Assembly: GCA_031273495.1 (NCBI GenBank)
Contig: JAISRT010000024.1
Span: 1 to 45,310 of the forward strand
DNA from: Candidatus Ancillula kalotermitis
GTDB taxonomy: Bacteria; Actinomycetota; Actinomycetes; Actinomycetales; Bifidobacteriaceae
Reading direction: 5' to 3'
DNA length: 45,310 bases
Positions 5,254 to 34,881 of this stretch are shown in pieces. The position numbers were made by a program, and so were the translations under genes. Numbering within the stretch: the first letter of the stretch is position 1; each line of letters starts with the position of its first letter. The notes under the pieces were generated by a model, which was not told the origin of the DNA, did not search any database, and worked only from the letters and a program-made list of their open reading frames with translations.

Positions 5254-5882
5254 TGCGAGCACTTCGGGTGCGCTTTTAAGGCGTACTGACAGAAGCGGTA
5301 CTTAATTTTCTCACCAGTGGGCGTTAAATCGCTCTCGGAGAACATCCACTCAGTTGAAGAAATCGGCATATAATCAGTGTTCATCGCGAGTTCGGGCGCA
5401 TAAACATAAACGGACAGTTCGGTATCTTGCGCAAAAGAATAATCAATCTCGGTGACATACACTTTCTGCACCTGGTTCGTTGTGACTGCCCAATTATAAA
5501 CCGACGCACCACCTATAATGAACACTTTATCCACGTCTGATACACTGACCGCTCGTGTGGCTATATATTCAGAGACTTCACTCAGACTAGTGCAGATTCT
5601 CAGGTTCTTGCCCGCCAAGTCGCCTGCGAACTCAGTTTCAAGCGCACGCCTCTCGTCTGGGAAGCACAATATCCAGTTCAAGCGCTTCGGTAGCGGTCTT
5701 TTGGGCAGACTGCGGTAGGTCTCGACACCCATAACGACGTGGTTTCCGCGGGCGGTAGGGTCGGATGTCACTCTCCTAAAGAAGTCAAAGTCCTCCTTGA
5801 GGTGCCAGAGTAGTTCGCAGTCACCCTTTTTCCCCAGTAGTTTGTCTCGGTCTTGGCACCAAATTGCAGCAATTTCAATCAT
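5250..5882 (-). CDS. folA: Dihydrofolate reductase
   Basis: A 210-residue dihydrofolate reductase, which makes tetrahydrofolate from dihydrofolate with NADPH. Recognisable segments are the N-terminal [38 protein letters not shown], with the acidic substrate-binding position in the LKEDF helix; the cofactor segment [25 protein letters not shown]; and the glycine pair of [30 protein letters not shown] follows. It is longer than the usual 160-180 residues because of loops in the C-terminal third. thyA, a common neighbour, is not in the window. The gene is divergent from carB with only 39 bp between start codons, and its ATG lies 6 nt after TGCTAAACT, predicting a leaderless message. Its TAA stop lies in a family-1 repeat. 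Confidence 0.93.
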
Positions 5883-5888
5883 AACATC

Positions 5889-5897
5889 AGTTTAGCA
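5889..5897 (-). promoter_or_regulatory. folA extended -10 promoter (leaderless)
   Basis: On the minus strand TGCTAAACT is followed by GATGTT and then the folA ATG. It lies back to back with the carB promoter, with 8 nt between the two extended -10 boxes. Confidence 0.6.
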
Positions 5898-5905
5898 TAC
5901 GAACG

Positions 5906-5914
5906 TGCTATACT
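5906..5914 (+). promoter_or_regulatory. carB extended -10 promoter (leaderless)
   Basis: TGCTATACT is followed by AGAGCAA and then the ATG at 5922 (7 nt). This decides the carB start, since the ORF-track start at 5853 lies upstream of the promoter and inside folA. Confidence 0.75.
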
Positions 5915-5921
5915 AGAGCAA

Positions 5922-8900
5922 ATGAAGCGAAATGACTTGAATTCAGTGCTAGTAATCGGCTCTGGTCCTATTGTTATTGGTCAAGCGTGCGAGTTTGACT
6001 ACTCAGGGACGCAGGCTTGCCGTGTGCTAAAATCTGAGGGCATTCGTGTGATACTTGTTAATTCCAACCCAGCGACCATTATGACGGACCCCGATTTTGC
6101 CGATGCGACCTATATTGAGCCAATCACAACCCCGATTCTGGAGGCGATTATTGAGAAAGAGCGCCCCGACGCAATACTACCTACTCTAGGCGGACAGACT
6201 GCCCTGAACGCGGCGGTGGCACTTGGTGAGGCTGGTGTGCTTGAGAAATATGGTGTTGAGCTGATTGGAGCGAGCCTTGAGGCTATCAACAAAGGTGAGG
6301 ACCGCGAAGAGTTCAAGAAAGTGGTTGAAAAGTCTGGCGCGGAGTCAGCGAGAAGTGTGATTGCACATTCTATGGAGGAGTGCCGAAAAGGTGTGGATGA
6401 TTTGGGTGGGTTCCCCGTAGTCGTTCGCCCTAGTTTTACGATGGGGGGGCTAGGCTCTGGGATTGCGTATAATGACGAGGACTTGGAGAATATTGCTGGG
6501 GCTGGCTTGCGTTACTCTCCGACTAGTGAGATACTACTTGAAGAGTCGATACTAGGCTGGAAAGAGTATGAGCTTGAGATGATGCGTGACAGCAAGGACA
6601 ATGTGGTCGTGGTGTGCTCGATTGAGAATTTTGACCCAGTCGGCGTCCATACCGGCGATTCTGTGACAGTTGCGCCAGCGTTGACACTGACTGACCGTGA
6701 GTATCAGAAGTTACGGGACATATCAATTAACATTATCCGTGAAGTTGGCGTGGACACAGGTGGGTGCAATATTCAGTTCGCGATCAACCCAGAAAACGGT
6801 CGTATTATCGTTATTGAGATGAATCCGAGAGTGAGCCGTTCAAGTGCATTGGCGTCAAAAGCCACTGGGTTCCCGATTGCCAAAATCGCTACGAAACTGG
6901 CGTGCGGGTATAACCTCGACGAGATCAAGAATGACATCACGAGGGAGACACCCGCCTCGTTTGAGCCTACACTAGACTATGTGGTGGTTAAAATACCACG
7001 GTTTGCATTCGAGAAGTTCCCTGCCGCCGACGACACTTTGACGACCACTATGAAGTCCGTGGGTGAAGTGATGGCTATCGGACGTAGTTTCAATGAGGCA
7101 CTGCAAAAAGCCTGCCGCTCAATCGACAACGGCGCGACAGAGTTCAATTTCGAGTCTACTGCTGACGAACTAGATGACCTGCTTGAGAGCGTAAAGAGGC
7201 CGACTGCGGGGCGTCTACTCCAGATCCAGAGAGCACTCTACGCCTTACAGAAGACTGATACGGCAGATGTAGCGGTGACGAAACTACACGAATTGACAAA
7301 AGTTGACCCCTGGTTCCTCAACCAGATATGCTATATAAACGAGGTAGCAGATCGCATTAAGCAGAGTGCCGCTCTCATCAAGAGTGCCGAAAAGAGTGCA
7401 CGAAACGTATTGAAGATGGCTAAGCAAAACGGGTTTAGCGACAAGCAGATTGCAATGCTGATAGGGCTTGGGACTGGTGCAGATACTGAGAACGAAGTCA
7501 GGATGATTCGCATGAAAAACAATATTGCGCCGGTGTATAAGTCGGTCGATACGTGCGCAGCGGAGTTCCCAGCGAAGACGCCATACTATTATAGCACATA
7601 TGACTTAGAGACTGAAGTGTTGCCTCGGGAGAAGGAGGCCATCTTGATTCTAGGGTCGGGGCCGAATAGGATTGGGCAGGGGATTGAGTTCGACTACTCG
7701 TGTGTGCATTGTGCACTCGACCTGAGCAACCCATTTTCGCTTGATTTGAGCAACCCATTTTCGTTGTCTTCGGCTCAAGCAGTGCCTTCGCACAGCCATT
7801 CGCCTGCAGACTTAGAAACTGACTCACTCATATCAAGCTCGCCGCTCGATCAGTGCAAACCATCGTTACCGTCATACGAGACCATTATGGTGAACTGCAA
7901 CCCGGAAACGGTTTCAACAGATTATGACACCGCAGACCGCCTGTATTTCGAACCGGTGACCTTCGAGGACGTGATGTCGATCTATGACGCGGAATTGAAG
8001 GCGGGCCCAATAAAAGGGGTCATCGTCCAGCTCGGAGGGCAGACACCCCTCAGTTTGGCAGCACGCTTGAAGGCTGCAGGTGTCCCGATAATAGGCACAA
8101 CTCCAGAGGCGATTGACTTGGCAGAAAACCGTGAAGCATTTGGGGAAGTCCTCAAGAACGTCGGACTGAACGCTCCAAAGTTTGGGACCGCACTAACAGT
8201 TGATGATGCATTCAAGATTGCAGATGCCATCGGTTTCCCAGTGCTTGTTCGCCCAAGCTATGTCCTCGGTGGCCGTGGTATGGAGATAGTCTACACCAAT
8301 GATCAGCTTGAGGATTACGTGTCGCGCGCCCTGTCTGCGGCAAAAATGCAGGCGGAGGATCGTGACGAGCTACCAGTGGCACTCCTAATCGACAAGTTCC
8401 TAGACGACGCGATGGAGATTGACGTTGACGCACTCTTTGACGGCAAAGAGCTGTATTTAGGCGGCGTAATGGAGCACATTGAGGAGGCGGGCATCCATTC
8501 TGGTGACTCGGCTTGCGTTCTGCCTCCAGCAACTTTGAGTAAGGCACAGATTGGCGTGATTCGCGAGGCGACAGAAAAGATTGCAAGGGGGGTCGGTGTT
8601 CTCGGGCTAATAAATGTGCAGTTCGCGTTGGCGGCAGGGCAACTTTATGTGATTGAGGCTAACCCACGGGCGAGTAGGACAGTCCCATTTGTGTCGAAGG
8701 CGTCAGGTATTTCGTTGGCTAAAGCGGCGGCGCGAGTAATGACGGGTGTCCCGATTTCACAGTTACGCGAGCTAGGATACCTCAAGCGGGTGGGTGATGG
8801 TGCCGACTTCGATTCATCAACGCCAATAGCAGTCAAAGAAGCAGTGCTACCGTTCAAAAGGTTCCGCACCAAGTCAGGGCAAGCAGTTGATTCGCTACTT

Positions 8901-9446
8901 GGCCCCGAGATGCGTTCCACCGGTGAAGTGATGGGCTTCGATGTTGACTTTCCGCACGCCTTCGCGAAGGCACAAGATGCAGTCGTTGGCAAGCCTAGCG
9001 CAACATCTGGCGGCGTGTTCCTCTCGATTAGTGACCGTGACAAGAAATTACTACCACTGGTTGCTAGGGAAATTAGCGACATCGGTTTCAAAATCTACGC
9101 GACACAAGGCAGTAAAGACATCCTAGACCGTAATGGCATCGAGTCGACAATAGTCAGCAAGATTTCGGGCAAGTTCGGCGGTATGATAGACGGTGCACCA
9201 ACCGCAGTCGAGCTAATCGAGCGGGGTGACATTCAGTTGGTGATTAACACTCCGTCCGGGCAGGGTTCGCGCACTGATGGTTACGAAATCCGTGCGGCAG
9301 CAACCGTAATGGACATCCCAACTATAACTACAATTCAACACTTCGTCGCCGCGGTGGAGGCTCTTCGCGTAACAAAGAACTCGAAATTCACGGTCAAGAG
9401 CCTGCAGGAGCACCACAAGTCAACCAGGAGTACTGAGTCTAGGTGA
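5922..9446 (+). CDS. carB: Carbamoyl-phosphate synthase large subunit with novel insertion
   Basis: A 1174-residue CarB, which makes carbamoyl phosphate from bicarbonate, ATP and CarA-supplied ammonia for pyrimidine and arginine synthesis. Two homologous ATP-grasp halves are present: [21 protein letters not shown] at the N-terminus and [21 protein letters not shown] at about 585. An MGS-like allosteric domain closes the protein ([18 protein letters not shown], then [17 protein letters not shown]). The start is moved from 5853 to the ATG 7 nt after the -10 box, giving [16 protein letters not shown]. The oddity is in the second pre-ATP-grasp domain. Where the family has a short loop before [18 protein letters not shown], this protein has about 50 low-complexity residues, beginning with a duplicated LDLSNPFS. 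Catalytic motifs on both sides are intact, so I expect it to be functional. carA is not in the window. Confidence 0.96.
7716..7763 (+). repeat. 24-bp in-frame tandem repeat inside carB
   Basis: Two 24-bp units (7716-7739 and 7740-7763), differing at three positions, each encode LDLSNPFS. They open an approximately 50-codon Ser/Pro-rich insertion ending near 7871, in a region that is normally tightly conserved in CarB. Confidence 0.85.
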
Positions 9447-9484: not shown

Positions 9485-9594
9485 ACTAAGGGGCCACGGC
9501 CCCCCACCACCCAAGGCCAGTGTAGCGCAAAATAGTGTCGCCAAGGTGCGGAAAGTGCGACGTGGTTAATAAGTGCCGATTTTATGGCTGGACT
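9485..9594. repeat. Family-1 intergenic repeat, single copy
   Basis: CTAAGGGGCCACGGCCCCCCACCACCC continues to GTGGTTAATAAGTG and then a T-rich end, the same order as in the pair near 5.0 kb. It lies between carB and the isomerase-kinase gene, ending about 30 bp before the promoter of the latter. Confidence 0.8.
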
Positions 9595-9626
9595 TCTTTT
9601 TAAGGGTGACTCGCATTCAAGATATG

Positions 9627-9635
9627 TGCTACAAT
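9627..9635 (+). promoter_or_regulatory. Isomerase-kinase extended -10 promoter (leaderless)
   Basis: TGCTACAAT is followed by AGTGCT and then the ATG at 9642 (6 nt), placing transcription and translation starts together and overriding the ORF-track start at 9573. Confidence 0.7.
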
Positions 9636-9641
9636 AGTGCT

Positions 9642-11906
9642 ATGATTAAGAATAGGCAACTCAATGCGGCAGTTAACCTATTAAATTTCGCGCGTAATTG
9701 CGTAGCTAAATGTGGTGGTTCGGGCTATCTCGATGCCAAGGGCGAACTGATTATTGATCGTGGCGTGGAGACGTGGATTACTGCACGGATGCTTTATAGT
9801 TTCTCGCTGGGGAAGATACTGCTGGACAACCGTTTAGTCGATGAGCGGCAATACAAGTTCGATGTTGAACATGTGATTGAGGGGCTACTGCAGGCGTTCG
9901 AGCCAGGAGGTTGTTTGTGCGATGATGTCAATGACGGCTGGTATGCGAAAGTCAGCTCAGTGGGCGAGGTGCTTGACCAGTCCAAAGCTGCGTATGCCCA
10001 CGCGTTTGTGATCTTGGCGTCGGCAACCCTTTTGAAAGCGGCTGAGAGTAATGATGAGCTGGCGGCCAGGGCGCAGAATTTATTCAGGCACAGTTTCGAC
10101 ATTTTCTATAAGTATTTCTGGGACAATGAGCAGCAGATGGCGCGAGATAATTACAAGCACGCCAATTGGACTGCACTTGATGATTACCGTGGTATTAACG
10201 CCAATATGCACACTGTAGAAGCACTTACGGCGGCATCGAGCATTTGCAAAGAGCTGAACTACGAGTTTGACAATCCCCAAAAAGTTGTACTTGAAGCTGA
10301 CTTGCCGTATGAGTTGGATGCGAAGAGTGCGTATTCGGTATTACTCTTTGATATGGCAGGCAGCATTATCGGGCGTGTTGTTCGTTTGGCGAAGCAGTTT
10401 GACTATAGGATACCTGAGCACTTTGACGAGAAGTGGACCCCGTTGCCTGAATTTAACAGCGCAGTGCCCGATGATCCTTTTAAGCCGTTTGGTGCGACTC
10501 CTGGGCACGCTATCGAGTGGGGGAGACTGATTCTGCAATACAACACTGTGGCGAAAGATGACGAACTCGCGAAAGTGGGGTGGAAGTTGATTGCGCAGAC
10601 ACTTTCGGAGAACTACACGCGCGGTGATGACGAGGGAATTGCCTACACGACTGATTTTAGCGGTGTGCCTGTGGTTAAGACAAGGATGCATTGGGTGGTT
10701 GCTGAGGCTTTAAGTGCGACTGCGGTGTTGGCGAAGGCTGGTGATGCAACTGCCTGGGAATTTTACGCTATGTTGGAACACTACGCACAAGAGTGCTTTT
10801 ATGACGAGGAATACGGGTCCTGGTTCCACGAGCTTGACGACAAGAACAGACTGAGTGATAAGGTTTGGCCGGGGAAACCTGATGTGTACCATGTGTTGCA
10901 GAGCTACCTTATTCCACTGTTTGACCCTGGAATGTCACTGGCGACCTCGATTAAGCCTACTGCAGTTGTTGTCGTCGGCGAATTGCTTTTCGATATCGAT
11001 CACACGAAGGGTTCGGGGCTTAAAGCGCTTGGAGGCAGTCTGACCAATATGGCAATCGGCATCTCGCGGCTGGGCAATAATGTGAAGCTATACACTGGTG
11101 TCGGCGATGATTCGCTCGGTACTGAAGCTCGAAACATTTTGCGCAGTGAACATGTGGATTTTGACGCTACAATGACCCTGATCGCGAAGACTAACACCGC
11201 GAAGGTAACACTTGACGCTAGCGGGAATGCACAGTACGAGTTCGAATACGACCCAACAATTCGTGGCATTCTGACTAGTGCCGCTGCCGACTTAATGAGT
11301 GCTAAAGCGCTGGTGCTAGGCTCGTTGTCGTCACAGTTTCCGCAAGGTGTGGCTGCTCATGAAATCGGTGTTTTGGCGCAAGAGGCAAAAACTCGCGGTG
11401 TAAAAGTCTATTACGACCCTAACATTCGCCCCACAGTTATCCCTGATCGTCACGCCACACTGAAAATCGTTGAGAACTATATTGCTAAATCGGCAGTTGT
11501 GAAGGCGTCACTTGAAGATCTCGAATGGCTCTACGGCAAGCAGGGCGAAGCATTTACCCGTGCAGACTGCGCAACATGGGCGGAGCGCTGGCTAGACCTA
11601 GGAGCAAAACTCGCAGTGTTCACTTTAGGGGCTGAAGGTGCCGTGGGATACTTCAAAGAGGTGCAGACCGCGTCTAGTGGTATCAATTTACAGTCAGTCT
11701 ATGTGCGCCCGAACGAAGTCGATGTCGCGGACACTATTGGCGCAGGTGACAGTTTCATGTCGGCATTGGTTGATGCGACCGCTAGTCTGGACCTTGACGC
11801 ACTCAACGCTCGCACAGTTGAAGAGGTGTTGCACTTCGCGTCCTCAGTTTCCGCAGTCACGGTTTCCCGCAAAGGTTCGAACCCACCGCACCTACATGAA
11901 CTCTAA
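9642..11906 (+). CDS. AGE-family sugar isomerase fused to PfkB sugar kinase
   Basis: A 754-residue two-domain cytoplasmic protein. Residues 1 to about 425 are an (alpha/alpha)6-barrel of the N-acylglucosamine 2-epimerase / mannose isomerase (YihS-like) family. Typical landmarks are NANMHTVEALTAA, PGHAIEWGRLILQ, RMHWVVAEALSA and YGSWFHELDDKNRLSDKVWPGKPDVYH. From about 436 a complete PfkB/ribokinase-type kinase follows: VVVVGELLFDI, LGGSLTNMAIGISRLG and the catalytic DTIGAGDSF. Lactyl- or sulfo-specific features cannot be judged. I infer a one-polypeptide route in which an aldose such as mannose is isomerised to the ketose (fructose) and phosphorylated to fructose-6-phosphate. The ATG at 9642 is leaderless relative to its -10 box. 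It is flanked by repeats and tuf, so there is no operon context. Confidence 0.88.
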   Translation: MIKNRQLNAAVNLLNFARNCVAKCGGSGYLDAKGELIIDRGVETWITARMLYSFSLGKILLDNRLVDERQYKFDVEHVIEGLLQAFEPGGCLCDDVNDGWYAKVSSVGEVLDQSKAAYAHAFVILASATLLKAAESNDELAARAQNLFRHSFDIFYKYFWDNEQQMARDNYKHANWTALDDYRGINANMHTVEALTAASSICKELNYEFDNPQKVVLEADLPYELDAKSAYSVLLFDMAGSIIGRVVRLAKQFDYRIPEHFDEKWTPLPEFNSAVPDDPFKPFGATPGHAIEWGRLILQYNTVAKDDELAKVGWKLIAQTLSENYTRGDDEGIAYTTDFSGVPVVKTRMHWVVAEALSATAVLAKAGDATAWEFYAMLEHYAQECFYDEEYGSWFHELDDKNRLSDKVWPGKPDVYHVLQSYLIPLFDPGMSLATSIKPTAVVVVGELLFDIDHTKGSGLKALGGSLTNMAIGISRLGNNVKLYTGVGDDSLGTEARNILRSEHVDFDATMTLIAKTNTAKVTLDASGNAQYEFEYDPTIRGILTSAAADLMSAKALVLGSLSSQFPQGVAAHEIGVLAQEAKTRGVKVYYDPNIRPTVIPDRHATLKIVENYIAKSAVVKASLEDLEWLYGKQGEAFTRADCATWAERWLDLGAKLAVFTLGAEGAVGYFKEVQTASSGINLQSVYVRPNEVDVADTIGAGDSFMSALVDATASLDLDALNARTVEEVLHFASSVSAVTVSRKGSNPPHLHEL

Positions 11907-19200: not shown

Positions 19201-21495
19201 ATGACTGAGAGTATTCTTGATGAGTTAGTCGCTGGTGCAGTTGAAGATTGTGCTGAGCGTCGACGTCTTGTGCCAAAAACCCAGCTGATGCTACTGGCGC
19301 AAAACCAGCGTCCTGCGTTAGACGTGCTTGAAGTGTTCAGACAGAGGCCCTTCAACTTGATAGCGGAAATCAAGCGCGCTAGCCCGTCAAAAGGTGACAT
19401 CGGTGAAATACTTGATCCGGTGAAGTTGGCGAAAGAATACGAATATGCGGGTGCTTCGATGATATCAGTTTTGACCGAGCGGCGTAAATTTAAGGGCAGC
19501 ATTAACGACTTGAAAAAGATTGCGAGTAGTGTTAATGTGCCTGTATTGCGCAAAGACTTCATAGTGGACGAGTATCAGATTCTTGAGTCGCGGGCTTGCG
19601 GCGCTAGTGTTGTGCTTCTAATTGTTGCGGCATTCGAGTGGGACAAAAACGGTGGGTTTAACCATCTGCAACGCCTCGTAAATCTGACGCACGAACTTGG
19701 CATGAAAGCGCTAGTGGAGTGTCACAATTATGACGAGATTCGCACTGCAAAAGGGCTCGGCGTTGAACTAATTGGTGTTAACGTGCGGGACTTAAAGACT
19801 TTCGAGGTCGATAAGAACATTTTTGCGCGGTATGCCCCCTCTTTTACTGATGAGGTCACACTAGTCGCAGAGTCTGGTGTTGCTGAGCCAGCAGATTTCG
19901 CATACTATGTGCGCAACGGGGCGAAGGCGGTTCTAGTGGGTGAGGCACTTGTCAAGGCAGCGGACCCCGTGCGCCAAGTTCGAGAGTTCTTGACGGCGGG
20001 TAAAATCGCGAAAATGGATACTCCGCAAGACCAACCCTCGATGTATCCAGTGGCAGATATCGCTCCTGACAGCACTCAGACTCAAAGTCAAGTCGGTGCA
20101 CAACGCAGCATTAACACTTCTGGTGTGGGTGCCTCGTTCAATACCACGCGCTATCAGACGCAGGAAGAGCAGAACCCGAACCAGCGTCCACTCGACGGCA
20201 AGCTTAGCGAGCTCAACGGACCGTATTTTGGTGAGTTCGGTGGTCGTTTTGTCCCCGAGGCGTTGGTTGGTGCCTTGACCGAGTTCGATGAGGCGTATCA
20301 GAAAGCAAAGGCGGACGACGAGTTCCAGTCCGAGTTCAAGCGGTTGTTGAAGGATTACGTTGGGCGTCCCAGTAGTTTGACTTTAGCCGACAGGTTCGCG
20401 ACGGCGTTGGGGGTCCGGATTTCCGAGGAGTTAGGTGTTTACGCGGTTCCAAAAGTATACCTTAAACGCGAGGACCTCAACCACACGGGTGCACACAAAA
20501 TAAACAACGCACTAGGTCAAGCACTCCTTGCAAAAAAGATCGGCAAGAAGCGTGTCGTTGCAGAGACGGGTGCGGGCCAACACGGCGTCGCCACAGCAAC
20601 CGTTTGCGCACTGCTCGGGCTGAAGTGCGTGGTCTATATGGGGGCGGTGGACGCAAAGCGGCAGGCATTAAACGTGGCTCGAATGAAACTGCTTGGCGCA
20701 GAAGTTGTTGAGGTTCAGACTGGTGACAAAATCCTCAAGGATGCGATAAATGAAGCACTGCGCGACTGGGTGACGAATGTTGAAACTACACATTATCTGC
20801 TAGGAACAGTTGCGGGCCCACATCCATTCCCTACTGTTGTGCGTGACTTCCAGAAAGTGATTGGCGAAGAGGCGAAACAGCAACTCAAGGAGGAGTATTT
20901 AGAACAGAAACTCCCTGATGCAATCGTGGCATGTGTTGGCGGTGGGTCGAACGCAATAGGCATTTTTAACGCATTTCTCGATGATGATCAGGTGCAACTT
21001 TTTGGTGTCGAGGCTGGTGGGAGTGGTCCTGAATCGGGCAAGCACGCGATACGTTTCGGTGAAGATTTGCCTGGCGCGCAGAATGTCGGGTCAATCGGCG
21101 TGTTCCAGGGTGCTAAGTCATACCTTTTGCAGGATTCGCAGGGGCAAACGCTAGAAACACACTCGATTTCAGCAGGACTAGACTACGCTTCGGTGGGGCC
21201 TGAGCATCCATATTTGAGAGCGATTGACCGCGTGAACTACACTTTTGCCACTGACGACGAGGCGATGGACGCGTTTTCAACACTCTGCAAGACTGAGGGC
21301 ATTATACCGGCACTAGAGTCGAGTCATGCGCTAGCGGGGGCCTATAAAGTGCTCCGAAAACTTGTCGAGCGGGGCAATTTAACCCCGACGGTGCTCATTA
21401 ACTTGTCTGGGCGCGGTGATAAAGATGTCAGTACAGCGTCAAAATACTTCGGAATTGCGGGTGACGAGTCAAGTGGAGGTGCAGGTGATGTCTAA
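19201..21495 (+). CDS. trpCB: Fused indole-3-glycerol phosphate synthase / tryptophan synthase beta
   Basis: A 764-residue fusion catalysing two tryptophan steps. Residues 1 to about 265 are TrpC ([31 protein letters not shown] with catalytic Lys; [12 protein letters not shown]). A roughly 70-residue low-complexity linker follows ([19 protein letters not shown]). TrpB begins near 338 ([18 protein letters not shown]), with the PLP lysine in [17 protein letters not shown] and the phosphate-binding GGGSNAIG. The same order of fusion is known from Bifidobacterium. trpA does not follow; dapF starts 6 nt after the stop, giving a trpCB-dapF-pyrF operon. No clear Shine-Dalgarno site or -10 box precedes the ATG. 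Confidence 0.95.
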
Positions 21496-33330: not shown

Positions 33331-33433
33331 ATTAAGGGGCCACGGCCCCCCGCCACCCATGTGGCCAGTGTAGCATGAAGTCGGGGCAGAAAGGCGTCAA
33401 GTGTGTGCTGTGGTTAATAAGTGTGGTTTTTAT
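33331..33433. repeat. Family-1 intergenic repeat after tlyA
   Basis: ATTAAGGGGCCACGGCCCCCCGCCACCCATGTGGCCAGTGTAGCATGAAG continues to GTGGTTAATAAGTGTGGTTTTTATT, closest to the 5151 copy. A short extra ACTCCATTAAGGGGCACTCC fragment lies just before it (33292-33312). Confidence 0.85.
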
Positions 33434-33495
33434 TGGGCAAAGAGGTTCTGCGATATGTAAATGGAATAATCTGCATGTTTTCTCGTTATAAAGTA

Positions 33496-34881
33496 ATGTT
33501 TGGCGCGCTGTTTGGTGATATAATCGGGAGTACATATGAGTCTGTCCCAGCTTTTGGGTCTGATTTCGATTTGTTTCCTGCCAGTGCGCATTGGACCGAC
33601 GACTCTGTCTTGACGATTGCGACGACGGTCGCCTTGCGTAAATGCCGTGAATTGGGTGCCGAAAGAGCGCGTAACTCCAACCATAGTATTGACGATATAA
33701 GTTTGCGTGAAGTTTGGCCTGATGCACTAACAGACGACGAGATTTCTGTCATTTTTCGAGAATGCTACGCTAAGTATGCAATCATGAATCCTCGTTCGGG
33801 GTTCGGCGGTATGTTCTACGAGAAGTGGCTTGTCGAAAAGAACTTTGTGCCCTACAACTCTTTTGGGAATGGTTCCGCTATGCGTGTTTCGCCAGTGGGT
33901 GAGTATTTCATTCGCGAAGAGCAAGTGCTAAGGTTCGCTAAGTTATCAAGCGCCGTGACTCATGACCATCCTGAAGGCGTAAAAGCCGCACAAGCAGTCG
34001 CACTAGCAGTTTTTCTGGCGCGAAGAGGGTGTACGAAACGCGAAATTCGTGATCGGCTTGTCAAAATGTTCGGGTATGACGAGGCTCCGTATCTAGTCAA
34101 TAGACAGTATGACGAGGTTAAGAAAGGTAGTGTTTGGTCAGAGCGCGCAATGGACTCAGTGCCTGAGGCGATCATCTGTTTTCTGGAGTCGACAAGCTTC
34201 GAAGACTGTGTTCGCAAGGCGGTGTTCCTACAAGGTGACGCGGATACTCAGGCTGCCATTGCTGGCTCAATTGCCTATTCATACTACAAAACCGAGGTCC
34301 CAGAGCATATTGTTGTCCCCGGGATGCGCATAATAACAGGCAGGTTTAACGACGAGATTCGGGCATGGCAACGCGACGAGCAGACGGCGAATTTGCATCA
34401 TAACGGCGACGGTTTCATAAACTGCGAGGGGTGCAAGAAGACGCATTGGGGAGTGAATGGCGCCGCGGGAATGCTTATCGCGCAGACGGAACGCAAAAAA
34501 GTGAAGGCGATTTTATTGCAGTTGCGCAGTCTAGACACTATAATGGGTGGGACTTGGGGTAATCCAGGCGGTGCGATTGACAACGGAGAGTCTGACGAAG
34601 AAGGTGCGCTGCGCGAGGCGTATGAGGAGGCGAATGTTCTTCCGGAAAACATTACGGTGCTCGGCAAAATTGTGCGTGACCATATCAACTGGAAGTTCAC
34701 GACATTCCTTGCGGTTGAGGATCCTGAATGCCCAATAGACCCTGCAGATAACGACAATGAGGCAGTTACCGTCCGTTGGGTGCGCCTTGAGGAGCTTGAC
34801 GAGATTGAACTACTGCCCGCCTTGAAAGATGAACTCCCCGAACTGTTACACGCACTTGAGGACGCTTTGCAGTCAAACTGA
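33496..34881 (+). CDS. ADP-ribosylglycohydrolase fused to Nudix hydrolase
   Basis: A 461-residue fusion. Residues 1 to about 290 are a DraG/ADP-ribosylglycohydrolase domain: MFGALFGDIIGSTYE, metal-binding HWTDDSVLTIAT, VTHDHPEGVKAAQAV and QGDADTQAAIAGSIAYSYY. A Cys-containing segment (INCEGCKKTHWGVNGAAGMLIA) then opens a Nudix domain whose box GGAIDNGESDEEGALREAYEEANV fits GX5EX7REUXEEXGU except for N in place of the last G. I infer that the first domain frees ADP-ribose from a protein, nucleic acid or metabolite, and the second cleaves it or a related nucleotide. The start is uncertain: ATG 33496 fits the family, ATG 33475 is possible, and no Shine-Dalgarno site is near either. Confidence 0.88.
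   Translation: MFGALFGDIIGSTYESVPAFGSDFDLFPASAHWTDDSVLTIATTVALRKCRELGAERARNSNHSIDDISLREVWPDALTDDEISVIFRECYAKYAIMNPRSGFGGMFYEKWLVEKNFVPYNSFGNGSAMRVSPVGEYFIREEQVLRFAKLSSAVTHDHPEGVKAAQAVALAVFLARRGCTKREIRDRLVKMFGYDEAPYLVNRQYDEVKKGSVWSERAMDSVPEAIICFLESTSFEDCVRKAVFLQGDADTQAAIAGSIAYSYYKTEVPEHIVVPGMRIITGRFNDEIRAWQRDEQTANLHHNGDGFINCEGCKKTHWGVNGAAGMLIAQTERKKVKAILLQLRSLDTIMGGTWGNPGGAIDNGESDEEGALREAYEEANVLPENITVLGKIVRDHINWKFTTFLAVEDPECPIDPADNDNEAVTVRWVRLEELDEIELLPALKDELPELLHALEDALQSN

Follow-up and report, generated by a model that had tools for sequence, protein, structure and literature searches.

What does a protein that joins a sugar isomerase to a sugar kinase in one chain do for the bacterium that encodes it? 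The window, which is the whole 45,310 nt stretch of Candidatus Ancillula kalotermitis DNA analysed here, raises this question through a single gene (9642..11906, forward strand) whose 754 aa product carries a mannose-isomerase-like AGE domain followed by a fructokinase-like PfkB domain, both matching Pfam above cut-off. A sequence-only reading had proposed that a complete AGE-family isomerase and a complete ribokinase-family kinase are combined here to convert mannose to fructose and then to fructose-6-phosphate. Our analysis indicates that the window protein is real and probably functional, with two predicted activities, and that a catabolic role in this route, from mannose through fructose to fructose-6-phosphate, is likely.

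A single open frame with two complete domains

The gene occupies one open frame of 754 codons, opposite which the reverse strand is riddled with stop codons, and its AGE part (approximately residues 1-436) and PfkB part (approximately residues 437-754) share that frame nearly without a linker. In particular, the Pfam profile GlcNAc_2-epim (PF07221) matches residues 25-420 with an E-value of 9.9e-72 across profile positions 1-346 of 347, and the profile PfkB (PF00294) matches residues 443-749 with an E-value of 1.4e-36 across positions 5-298 of 302; this near-full coverage indicates that both domains are complete, as had been claimed. An alternative in-frame start, GTG at 9573, lies upstream of the ATG at 9642 and would yield a protein of 777 aa. 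A weak promoter-like site (GTGACT-18-TACAAT; 9606..9635, forward strand; a consensus match only, 9/12) ends 6 nt before the ATG, and because its TACAAT ends at 9635, the ATG is favoured over the GTG. Judged from this arrangement, the transcript is possibly leaderless, starting at or beside the ATG.

The fusion gene sits between carB and tuf, neighbours that were named by reading their translations, and its two halves have GC contents of 0.498 and 0.520, similar to those of carB (0.514) and tuf (0.487). The fusion is known in its source species from one genome assembly (G000) of 62 contigs, and the sister species (G002) has both genes apart, as would be expected if the assembly had artificially joined two genes. 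However, the junction is in frame and falls exactly at the domain boundary within a 45 kb contig, the composition is uniform, and the same architecture is present in an independent genome (G924), which together make an assembly join highly improbable.

Other genes of the window have their own peculiarities. The CarB-like protein (5853-9446, forward strand; 1197 aa) has an odd low-complexity, repeat-bearing insert in mid-protein. By eye, a 764 aa protein (19201-21495, forward strand) reads as a fusion of TrpC (indole-3-glycerol phosphate synthase) and TrpB (tryptophan synthase beta), and a 486 aa protein (33421-34881, forward strand) reads as an ADP-ribosylglycohydrolase-Nudix fusion.

The isomerase domain is of the YihS/mannose isomerase type

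The AGE/YihS-type aldose-ketose isomerase domain (residues 1-436; 9642..10949, forward strand) was delimited by Pfam, alignments and a structure model. An (alpha/alpha)6-barrel AGE fold spans the whole domain, according to Pfam and a comparison of the model with Salmonella YihS (2zbl), its top match (TMt 0.89, rmsd 2.1); the D-mannose isomerase 5x32 appears further down the match list (TMt 0.87), and a sequence search of the PDB also returns YihS proteins as the nearest solved relatives. The E. coli YihS residues R55, Y111, N172, H176, H248, E251, W316, E320 and H383 are kept in the fusion as R49, Y118, N186, H190, H289, E292, W351, E355 and H417, which are the catalytic residues of the domain, and the catalytic and substrate positions are invariant in an alignment of 27 rows. 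These residues include the three-histidine centre (H176, H248 and H383 in YihS; H190, H289 and H417 here), accompanied by the equivalents of R55 (R49) and E251 (E292). Such a centre is the hallmark of the YihS type, whose Pseudomonas geniculata member is a measured D-mannose isomerase (PMC7762179). Moreover, a mannose isomerase of the YihS subfamily reaches 39% mannose from fructose (PMC7762179), and the same paper cites a Pseudomonas saccharophila mannose isomerase from 1956.

The window's domain and the D-mannose isomerase/YihS type (EC 5.3.1.7 / 5.3.1.31) have in common the fold, the three catalytic His, the Arg, the Glu and the substrate Tyr/Asn; in contrast to these enzymes, the fusion adds a C-terminal kinase and an insertion of approximately 30 residues, and its identity to YihS is approximately 29%. 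The insertion (approximately residues 202-233; 10245..10340, forward strand) is lineage-specific in the alignment and has a pLDDT of approximately 59; the isomerase of the sister species (L036) is also longer there, whereas G924 and the other compared relatives are not.

The Pfam name of the first domain suggests an alternative, in which an N-acylglucosamine 2-epimerase and a sugar kinase serve amino-sugar catabolism. The domain scores 44.8 bits on the NCBIfam N-acyl-glucosamine epimerase model, compared to 267.6 bits on the mannose isomerase model. Moreover, at the positions of YihS Tyr111, Asn172 and His176, nAGE10, an AGE enzyme, carries Phe, Ala and Ile (PMC6333288), where the window protein has Tyr118, Asn186 and His190. 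The epimerase was rejected on these N-acetyl pocket residues, leaving it scarcely credible; judged by its sequence, the domain is of the YihS/mannose-isomerase type and not an N-acylglucosamine 2-epimerase. The mannose isomerase score is under the equivalog cut-off of 600, and E. coli YihS itself scores 500.9, also below the cut-off, on the same 'D-mannose isomerase' model. The model therefore does not part mannose from sulfoquinovose isomerases, and the match was rejected as proof of substrate.

The kinase domain is nearest to fructokinases

The PfkB fructokinase-like domain (residues 437-754; 10950..11903, forward strand) was defined by Pfam, motifs and a structure model. It keeps the kinase motifs GE446-447, D451, GGSLTN 464-469, DPNIRP 592-597 and DTIGAGD 697-703, so that the catalytic and anion-hole motifs are present, with Asp 703 as the PfkB catalytic Asp; across both domains, the alignments reveal no loss at any tested catalytic residue. 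By sequence, the nearest solved relatives are the Brucella and Mycobacterium marinum fructokinases. The domain's model (mean pLDDT 90.6) has as its top match the Brucella fructokinase 4wjm (Z 38.3, rmsd 2.1, 293 residues), and compares to M. marinum 7cf8 with a Z of 36.1 and to Vibrio cholerae 5eyn, with fructose bound, with a Z of 34.1; because Z values are close among PfkB proteins, the fold alone does not fix the substrate.

The fusion kinase and these three PfkB fructokinases have in common the full-length fold and the motifs GE..D, GG...N, DPNxR and GAGD. Unlike them, the fusion kinase stands behind an isomerase, has 25-30% identity to them and falls far below the equivalog cut-off: its best NCBIfam model is the fructokinase NF006957, at 93.2 bits against a cut-off of 450, and the tandem and stand-alone relatives too reach only 110-121. 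By both sequence and model, the kinase is nearest to fructokinases and not to the sulfofructose kinase YihV.

A sulfosugar pair is disfavoured

YihV figures in the one other substrate assignment that deserves serious consideration, a YihS/YihV-like sulfosugar pair, which is disfavoured. The protein would then hold a sulfoglycolytic pair in one chain, a YihS-like sulfoquinovose isomerase and a YihV-like sulfofructose kinase of the sulfo-EMP pathway. The products of E. coli yihS and yihV likewise belong to the AGE and PfkB families and act in sequence as isomerase and kinase, the best PDB matches of the AGE domain are YihS proteins, as described above, and the sulfo-EMP pathway, with homologues of YihS/YihV, is also present in Actinobacteria (PMC12890257). 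However, the E. coli genes are separate and YihV lies on another PfkB branch: BLASTP of the kinase to YihV covers only 54 residues, and the best NCBIfam class is fructokinase here but ribokinase for YihV. Further, YihS belongs to a different AGE clade, and its residues R238, Q362 and Q379, which we take to be those of the sulfonate site, are P279, H396 and P413 in the window protein. No sulfoglycolysis gene (YihT aldolase, sulfolactaldehyde reductase or dehydrogenase) was recognised when the window's ORFs were read, and the relatives' tandem operons bear mannosidases, as described below. Overall, we consider a sulfosugar substrate very unlikely.

A separate AGE protein, at L050 (G044 C5; 9141-10289, reverse strand), groups loosely with E. 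coli YihS (98/55) and lacks Q362 and Q379; it may represent an actinobacterial branch for sulfosugars or mannose.

Fused and tandem forms and their operons

The survey covered 189 Bifidobacteriaceae genomes and two further samples, each of 396 genomes, drawn at the order and the phylum level. Matches at an E-value of 1e-20 occur in 98 of the 189 family genomes, nearly all of them to the AGE domain, and the fusion is found in one (1/189), the source genome. In the sister species, a congener, the isomerase gene is unfused and neighbours, on L036, a gene for a glutamyl-tRNA synthetase; the kinase gene lies apart from it, on L037, next to a purM-like gene. The sole further fusion in the 396 + 396 sampled genomes is that of G924, which belongs to another family (47 genomes) of the same order; it has the same domain order and aligns with the window protein near end to end at 36% identity. 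The search of open-licence literature returned no description of an AGE-PfkB fusion, and as far as searched the fused architecture is undescribed there, both enzymes and the route being already known separately. The initial remark that no described enzyme of this architecture was known agrees with this literature search, but the architecture recurs in G924 and also exists as unfused tandems.

Five relatives of G924 (G938, G669, G869, G885 and G826) have such AGE-PfkB tandems, and two Embleya replicons have AGE and PfkB genes close together, with a LacI-type gene between them in 2/3 copies; these tandems have the same two genes as the fusion, in the same order and on the same strand, but unfused. 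At all four tandem junctions that were checked, the stop codon of the AGE gene shares nucleotides with an ATG or GTG whose frame continues into the kinase (a 4 nt overlap, ATGA or GTGA). The Embleya pairs are borne on plasmids (L060, L061 and L109), and Embleya sp. NBC_00888 carries two of these loci.

Four of the tandems (G938, G869, G885 and G826) are accompanied by mannosidase or GH2 genes. The G869 operon runs from sugar ABC transporter genes through a GH38 alpha-mannosidase (by Pfam) to the isomerase and the kinase. The G885 operon has the order LacI regulator, ABC transporter, GH2 beta-mannosidase, isomerase and kinase, where the GH2 assignment comes from Pfam and solved beta-mannosidases match at an E-value of 1e-102; the G826 operon has the same gene order, its GH2 gene being named from a near-identical N-terminus. 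In G938, the order is transporter, GH2-like gene, AXE1-type esterase, isomerase and kinase, and the GH2-like gene is named by its resemblance to the G885 sequence, Pfam giving no match on the G938 fragment. In contrast, no mannosidase or sugar transporter adjoins the fusion of the source genome within the window. By analogy, this operon context is the strongest evidence for mannose as the substrate: because the relatives' tandems lie with mannosidases and sugar ABC-transporter genes, the route from mannose through fructose to fructose-6-phosphate is the best reading, and it also fits the AGE subtype and the kinase class.

The two domains could instead be independent enzymes in one chain, coupled by co-expression alone, with the kinase acting on fructose from any source (sucrose, fructans) and the isomerase on mannose or glucose. 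No PfkB protein besides the fusion turned up in the assembly, which is 81% complete, the fusion has its own promoter-like site, and in the full-length model, which used an AGE-only alignment, the kinase half is of low confidence and the domain orientation is not confidently predicted. However, the same pair is fused in two families and forms operonic tandems with mannosidases, which argues for a pathway shared by both domains and leaves independent action with a small share of the probability.

Origins of the two fusions

The AGE tree places the window protein with the sister species (100/98) inside the Bifidobacteriaceae (100/99), and the G924 fusion with the G938 tandem copy (96/81); an AU test rejects holding the two fusions together (p = 7.8e-6). 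In the kinase tree, G924 joins the G938 and G669 tandem copies (100/99), the window row has no resolved place, and a kinase origin shared with G924 is not rejected (AU test, p = 0.33). On this phylogenetic evidence, the isomerase halves of the two fusions have separate origins, whereas two independent fusions of the whole protein are only probable, because the kinase test does not reject the join with G924. The window's AGE and PfkB branches are long; its tree positions carry some doubt, and altered specificity is possible. The fusion in the source lineage would most likely have arisen from separate genes, and that of G924's family, probably an independent event, would have had an overlapping tandem as its ancestor.

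Genome context and proposed function

The source genome assembly has a length of 1.07 Mb. It encodes one phosphoketolase (XFP, E = 1.5e-179), in agreement with the proposed entry into the bifid shunt. At its 81% completeness, the assembly revealed no second AGE or PfkB protein, no type I phosphomannose isomerase and no ROK kinase; all three congeners have a ROK match, and the absence here may be due to loss or incompleteness. The suggested bypass of manA is consistent with the missing type I enzyme, but a strict bypass goes beyond what an 81%-complete assembly can carry. A role as the 'sole hexose kinase' was likewise dropped, given the completeness of the assembly and the ROK matches of the congeners.

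In the mannose-to-fructose-6-phosphate reading, the N-terminal domain, whose fold, subtype and active-site residues are established, would interconvert D-mannose and D-fructose as its predicted substrates, and the C-terminal PfkB domain is predicted to phosphorylate D-fructose with ATP, putatively at O6. The near-equilibrium isomerase step would be drawn toward fructose-6-phosphate by the irreversible kinase step, and the product would enter the bifid shunt via the genome-encoded phosphoketolase. We infer the coupling of the domains and the physiological role of the fusion; its advantage probably lies in a fixed co-expression and in the closeness of the two domains. The channelling that the sequence-only reading had suggested is a further possibility, although each domain could also work independently of the other. 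A stronger version, in which fructose is handed from pocket to pocket and a twice-evolved fusion is the principal or sole entry point for free hexose (mannose, perhaps glucose by slow isomerisation) in an organism lacking ManA and a ROK glucokinase, is unlikely.

The mannose-to-fructose-6-phosphate reading would give an orphan isomerase gene that is common among Bifidobacteriaceae a place in a route that uses neither a mannokinase nor a phosphomannose isomerase. Together with the mannosidase operons, the fusion's probable double origin would amount to a Rosetta-stone assignment. Further, the fusion and the overlapping tandem would form a ready pair for asking whether fusing sequential enzymes improves flux.
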